Shown: one piece after another, positions 9,585 through 9,736 of the stretch
Numbering within the stretch: position 1 is the first letter of the stretch
Layout of the letters: each line of letters begins with the position of its first letter
Assembly: GCF_029690065.1 (NCBI RefSeq)
Contig: NZ_CP121463.1
Span: 1,736,001-1,800,000, forward strand
Reading direction: 5' to 3'
Length of the DNA: 64,000 bases
Source: Arthrobacter sp. Y-9
Lineage (GTDB): Bacteria > Actinomycetota > Actinomycetes > Actinomycetales > Micrococcaceae
Notes under the pieces: generated by a model
Seen by the model: only the letters and a program-made list of their open reading frames with translations
The model's database searches: none
Told to the model about the DNA's origin: nothing
Translations under genes and position numbers: made by a program

Positions 9585-9590
9585 TAACCT
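9585..9590 (+). promoter_or_regulatory. -10 element for a leaderless leuA leader transcript
   Basis: TAACCT lies exactly 6 bases before the GTG of the leuA leader peptide, so transcription would begin at or beside the start codon. No convincing Shine-Dalgarno or -35 box is seen. Inferred from spacing. Confidence 0.55.
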
Positions 9591-9596
9591 GACAAC

Positions 9597-9641
9597 GTGC
9601 ATGCAGGGTTGCTTCTTCTTAGCTGCCGTGGCGAGGCCTGA
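9597..9641 (+). CDS. leuA leader peptide (MHAGLLLLSCRGEA)
   Basis: A 14-codon frame (GTG start, TGA stop) about 95 bases upstream of leuA reads MHAGLLLLSCRGEA. Four consecutive leucine codons (TTG CTT CTT CTT) are what a leucine-responsive attenuation leader needs, and the product of leuA is the first committed step to leucine. The remaining SCRGEA is not explained by leucine sensing alone. The 95 bases to the leuA start have no obvious U-tract terminator, so control may be translational or use a non-classical structure. Too short for routine gene calling. Confidence 0.75.
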   Translation: MHAGLLLLSCRGEA

Positions 9642-9736
9642 TTCTTTACCGTTGTGAAGCTGGGCTCCCTCGTCGCGGAGTCTGTTGCGCCCGGCTATCT
9701 TGACAGCCCTCACGAGTAAAAGGCACTGGAAATCAC

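Follow-up and report, generated by a model that had tools for sequence, protein, structure and literature searches.

The window analysed here is a 64,000-nt stretch of DNA from Arthrobacter sp. Y-9, a member of the Micrococcaceae. It carries leuA, the gene for 2-isopropylmalate synthase (NCBIfam PRK03739, 2.8e-268; TIGR00970, 9e-255), and upstream of it a short frame, GTG CAT GCA GGG TTG CTT CTT CTT AGC TGC CGT GGC GAG GCC TGA (9597–9641), that encodes MHAGLLLLSCRGEA. The GTG at 9597 starts this frame 6 nt 3′ of the hexamer TAACCT, and 95 nt lie between the TGA stop codon (9641) and the leuA ATG (9737). The −10 hexamer, the GTG 6 nt later, the frame with four Leu codons and the 95-nt gap had been pointed out in an earlier note on this DNA, and all are confirmed in the sequence. 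The features of the locus, including the strands of the base stem P0, the stem P1 and the pseudoknot helix P2, are collected in Table 1.

Table 1. Features of the leuA leader region (window coordinates)
Feature	Position	Strand	Basis
−10 hexamer TAACCT, leader promoter	9585–9590	+	sequence; conserved spacing
ORF of the leader peptide MHAGLLLLSCRGEA, ending in TGA; probably leaderless, with the 5′ end at or close to the start codon	9597–9641	+	sequence; stop position
Regulatory Leu codons TTG CTT CTT CTT, doubling as 5′ strand of base stem P0	9609–9620	+	codon variation
P1 5′ strand CCGUGGCGAG, within the CRGE tail codons	9626–9635	+	covariation
P2 5′ strand GCUGGGC, inside the P1 loop (pseudoknot)	9659–9665	+	swap test; 7/7 pairs with 9689–9695
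P1 3′ strand CUCGUCGCGG	9669–9678	+	10/10 pairs with 9626–9635, two of them G-U; covariation
P2 3′ strand GCCCGGC	9689–9695	+	swap test; sequence
AAAAGGCA, leuA Shine-Dalgarno-like segment, P0 3′ strand	9718–9725	+	sequence; family-level co-variation
leuA, 2-isopropylmalate synthase	9737–11476	+	NCBIfam matches

A consensus scan of 9450–9800 reveals no terminator-like site. It also gives no sigma-70-like site, and the −10 assignment is therefore based on position and conservation. Three of the four codons in the leader run are CTT, a codon that accounts for 4 of the 236 Leu codons in six window genes (binomial 1.9e-5, in a test chosen post hoc). A chance origin of the leader was considered and rejected, given this enrichment and the presence of the element in 96 of 120 family genomes. 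The nested fold of 9597–9745 is no more stable than those of shuffled sequences (z −0.04) and leaves AAAAGG unpaired at minimum energy; it is of little use here, because the element is a pseudoknot. Further downstream, the gap between leuA and recO (11497–11568) has a strong G+C-rich hairpin with a T run behind it, possibly the leuA terminator, which gives a sub-threshold Rfam match to Scr3202 (23.8 bits vs 52).

Elements of this kind have been described. The LEU element of actinobacterial leuA genes was named by Seliverstov et al. (2005; PMC1262725), who describe a leader ORF carrying a run of Leu codons, a base stem in which that run pairs with the leuA Shine-Dalgarno sequence, and an internal pseudoknot. 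The portion of that paper on the element reports no terminator, and it mentions one LEU-like sequence inside a transposase gene. LeuL1 of Streptomyces lividans, MRFGLLLLSCRGEGL, is encoded by a leaderless transcript, and a typical terminator is absent according to the passage that describes it (PMC8079986). The leuA gene of Mycobacterium abscessus is preceded by a ribosome-protected upstream ORF (PMC4974804), and leuA leaders of Corynebacterium glutamicum and C. diphtheriae have likewise been published. From the descriptions of the LEU element and LeuL1, the window element thus belongs to a kind already published.

The comparison with known systems shows both likeness and difference. With the LEU element of PMC1262725 the window element shares the Leu-run leader ORF upstream of leuA and the pseudoknot, whereas its base stem is weak; added here, relative to the published account of the element, are evidence at the levels of codons and stop position, and elements before leuC, before leuB with a small ORF, and before second leuA genes. 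The leuL1 of S. lividans TK24 has nearly the same peptide (MRFGLLLLSCRGEGL), is leaderless, lacks a typical terminator and is found upstream of leuA; it is from another organism, however, and the passage on leuL1 discusses no pseudoknot (PMC8079986). The mycobacterial polycysteine ORFs (Canestrari 2020, via PMC13236596) are also leaderless sensor-codon ORFs, and are called translation attenuation in the source, but they sense cysteine. The ilvB1 attenuator of M. tuberculosis, as outlined in PMC13236596, has branched-chain regulatory codons, LVVI, in its leader ORF, and has a Rho-independent terminator, in contrast to the window leuA element, for which none is found.

The Rfam families considered as identities include the T-box, riboswitches and the enteric leu leader. 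A search of window positions 8000–12500 against Rfam 15, up to E 5, gives four matches, all below the gathering score and none over 9585–9736, and 11 related loci give no match at gathering thresholds. With no match over the element in either scan, the described Rfam families were rejected as its identity.

The SCRGEA tail of the peptide, left unexplained in the earlier note, is the 5′ strand of P1, a stem that covaries. Over 50 sequences, 99.4% of 500 P1 cells are paired. Four pairs are changed on both sides, a number reached by 3 of 500 shuffles, and 45 cells show both-side changes compared with 9.8 in shuffles (0/500). The 5′ strand of P2, inside the P1 loop, pairs downstream and so creates a pseudoknot. 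In a swap test with 49 representative elements, the P2 strands pair better with their own partners (−15.09) than with swapped ones (−12.87; 0/5000 permutations); reversed-loop and CDS controls are flat, and a third control, taken from the 18 nt before the leader, is void since it included empty strings. The conserved pseudoknot of P1 and P2 that marks the LEU element is present in the window with 10 of 10 and 7 of 7 pairs, and the 95 bases before leuA hold the remaining pseudoknot strands plus a segment able to pair with the Leu run. The P1 codons vary chiefly at first and second positions. From P1 covariation and the pseudoknot strands, the SCRGEA tail is thus probably constrained mainly as an RNA strand.

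The element is widely distributed. Among the sampled genomes of the class, 382 of 394 (118 of 122 genera) contain it according to a covariance model termed R2, as do 96 of 120 (27 of 32 genera) in the window's family; some of the 50 R2 training sequences come from genomes in these counts, so that a few matches are guaranteed by construction. The 24 family genomes without a match were scored under strict filters, though LeuA is present in all 120. Five family genera (g4, g13, g14, g15 and g17) show no element match, as judged from a listing that names 20 of the 24. An earlier, narrow model, R1, whose training set was the window plus 37 of 80 loci and which was run with strict filters, matched 28 of 246 phylum genomes, four of them outside the class; R2 supersedes it. 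The window's own genome has a single copy (search up to E 10). The earlier note had made its reading depend on conservation of the peptide in relatives, and the 96 family genomes bear it out. A simple pattern of at least three consecutive Leu codons is present in the leader at 69 of 80 loci from the best LeuA matches listed; these LeuA-anchored loci are from Arthrobacter, Pseudarthrobacter, Kocuria, Microbacterium and others. Nine of the other 11 keep the core but have an interrupted Leu run, an atypical start or a greater distance, one (L042) is truncated before leuA and one (L052) is without the element.

Codon usage in the leader was analysed in 218 elements, a set that contains near-duplicates, and in the 49 representatives, a mix of 38 leuA-type elements with leuC, leuB/small-ORF and other types. 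L195, L230 and L231 were dropped before the set was built; of 12 more without P1, L052, L179, L207 and L223 were excluded and eight family loci, which lay on the opposite strand, were restored by reverse-complementing. Class labels were assigned partly by hand, with 20 loci listed as leuB/small-ORF, and with L156, L181 and L198 in the leuA class by default. Among the 38 leuA-class representatives, the entropy of the Leu run is 1.72, 1.62 and 0.66 bits at third positions, and 0–0.57 at first and second positions. Among 186 leuA-class elements, the codons four, three and two places ahead of the tail (−4, −3 and −2) encode Leu in 178, 180 and 186, the last count being partly by construction because the scan for L002–L111 required CTN near codon −2; codons −3 and −4 and the third-position variation are free of this requirement.

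Two further properties bear on the reading frame. All 218 elements have an in-frame stop before the P1 3′ strand is reached, compared with 26 and 20 for the other frames, as do all 49 representatives, compared with 8 and 4. The motif TANNNT is found 5–9 nt before the in-frame leader start in 193 of the 218 (39 of the 49 representatives), with a gap of 6 in 123; at random positions in the same sequences the mean is 5.7 and the maximum 11 (200 draws). By this criterion the −10 is missing from 25 elements and 10 representatives. The leader is probably leaderless, as far as can be judged from such spacing, and the earlier note's proposal of an apparently leaderless peptide with Leu codons upstream of leuA is supported, both by the −10 spacing kept in relatives and by the likeness to S. 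lividans.

Elements are found before genes other than leuA. The downstream gene was read at 80 places in 38 of 40 genomes, at 13 stretches and at the LeuA-anchored loci. At the 80 places, the longest downstream ORF matches LeuA in 49 cases (one at just 27% over 104 aa), LeuB in 14, LeuC in two and the short L146 protein in three, with no match in 12. These 12 comprise four loci with a small-ORF motif (L165, L168, L196 and L215) and one look-alike (L217), two with LeuA-like starts (L156 and L181), one truncated locus (L195), and four that are unassigned or spurious-looking (L198, L223, L230 and L231).

Between the element and leuB, which is identified by NCBIfam PRK03437, a conserved small ORF of ∼27–50 aa with a C-terminal motif like ALDRRDNGG is seen at 16 loci; L162, L183, L190, L200, L213, L219, L222, L224 and L226 are among the loci with a small ORF before leuB. 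Its motif stands before 12 of the 14 LeuB matches, and three examples of the ORF have no Pfam or NCBIfam match. Of the 20 leuB/small-ORF-class elements, 18 have a mixture of Leu, Val or Ile codons at three or more of the positions −5 to −2, as in the L222 leader, M-R-Q-V-L-V-L-I-T-C; in L215 and L234 the run of branched-chain codons is absent or short. Leu-run elements lie directly 5′ of leuC at L142, L148, L149, L161 and L166, where leuC is identified by NCBIfam TIGR00170 (L142 and L161), by BLAST to L148 (L166) or by eye (L149). Elements with Leu/Val sensor codons precede an ORF of 131–168 aa at L146, L216, L228, L232 and L233. The L216 ORF is weakly LeuA-like (27% over 104 aa), those of L228, L232 and L233 resemble L146, and the L146 ORF has no Pfam or NCBIfam match. 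Four genomes of the window's family (G020, G064, G091 and G094) have a second leuA, in each case with an element ∼90–105 nt upstream. Searches of the open-licence literature gave no report of elements before leuC, before leuB with the small ORF or before a second leuA, or of the accompanying codon switching. The codon constraint, the position of the stop, the −10 spacing, the codon switch and the second-leuA elements together suggest that the leader frame is translated and acts as a sensor.

The base stem P0 is only weakly paired in the window. Positions 9718–9725 form seven of eight pairs with 9610–9617, with one C·A mismatch, and the best duplex, at −6.1 kcal/mol, is weak. Over the 49 representatives, the P0 strands pair better with their own partners than with swapped ones (−9.94 vs −8.71; 0/5000, five controls flat), a modest family effect in which the own partner beats 58% of foreign ones. 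Sixteen small-ORF elements give −9.28 vs −8.17 (33/5000), a test that includes L220, whose automatic small-ORF start is wrong by eye. The uneven set of 179 elements (194 before duplicates were removed; starts >130 nt after P1 omitted, and 18 loci on a hand-made exclusion list where the automatic start choice was wrong or doubtful) gives z −4.5. Its CDS control deviates too (z −3.1), which points to inflation by relatedness, and the 49-representative test is therefore relied upon. Across the family, the Leu run thus appears to co-vary modestly with the leuA Shine-Dalgarno sequence.

The window element is best read as a leuA LEU element, and translational attenuation is its most likely mechanism, an assignment that we regard as somewhat better than even. 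When leucyl-tRNA is ample, the ribosome would complete the ORF, come to a halt shortly beyond the P1 5′ strand and depart; P1, P2 and P0 would then fold, hiding the leuA Shine-Dalgarno sequence. When leucyl-tRNA is scarce, the ribosome would stall on the Leu codons and occlude the 5′ side of P0 together with the first part of P1, so that both stems are blocked, the Shine-Dalgarno sequence stays free and leuA is translated. We infer the stalling, and the timing, direction and level of control, from this arrangement. Against the P0 step stand the weak pairing in the window, with seven of eight pairs, the open AAAAGG of the nested fold and the modest size of the family effect. Also to be set against the reading are the 24 family genomes with no match, the 25 elements lacking the −10, and L215 and L234 with their absent or short run of branched-chain codons.

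The main rival is Rho-dependent control of transcription, which seems possible though rather unlikely. Here a stalled or absent ribosome would decide whether Rho gains access to RNA polymerase in the stretch that separates leuA from its leader, and the pseudoknot would modulate Rho or pausing. No intrinsic terminator is found in the window and U-tracts are present in 2 of the 49 representatives, so any termination is probably of the Rho type. Rho has been proposed for mycobacterial cys leaders (PMC1262725), and a section of PMC6892785 reports that leuA and leuL transcripts of C. glutamicum are upregulated only after 5 min of starvation. This rival, however, does not account for the pseudoknot, nor for the way in which Leu run and Shine-Dalgarno sequence co-vary.

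Less probable still is a bound protein acting in place of translation of the leader peptide. The authors of PMC1262725 argued for such a protein from the distribution of genes and from Streptomyces coelicolor leader mutations, which do not fit classical attenuation, and their conclusion is that mutated Leu codons leave regulation uninfluenced. The misfit is compatible with a translational switch, because the latter is not classical attenuation; if the lack of effect of Leu-codon mutations is valid for leuA, it would count against translational attenuation. Codon-periodic variation, stop position, a conserved leaderless start and the switch from Leu to Val/Ile/Leu codons are, on the other hand, expected only if the frame is translated.

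Classical attenuation, with a terminator opposed by an antiterminator as in the enteric leu leader and the ilvB or trp leaders of actinobacteria, is very improbable and a terminator attenuator was rejected: there is a Leu-run leader peptide before leuA and competing pairings can be drawn, but no G+C-rich hairpin with a U-tract is found before leuA in the window, U-tracts are rare among the representatives, and the Rfam scans are silent over the element. On the same scan of 9450–9800 and the same two U-tracts, the earlier note's view that the 95 bases lack a clear terminator, and that the switch hence may differ from the enteric type, is sustained.

In 2005, PMC1262725 preferred a bound protein over peptide translation for the LEU element, and the papers found offer no demonstration of its mechanism since then. 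The 218 elements, with their 49 representatives, favour a translated leader that serves as the sensor, and the strands of P0, P1 and P2 and the stop are now placed exactly. The chances appear evenly balanced that the LEU element is, more broadly, a class-wide translational attenuator in which the sensor codons serve as the anti-Shine-Dalgarno sequence and codons of the peptide tail provide a pseudoknot lock. It would then have spread, with a switch from Leu to Val/Ile/Leu codons, to leuC, to leuB with its small ORF, to second leuA genes and to short genes, one of them weakly LeuA-like. In some lineages the element does precede leucine-pathway genes besides leuA.
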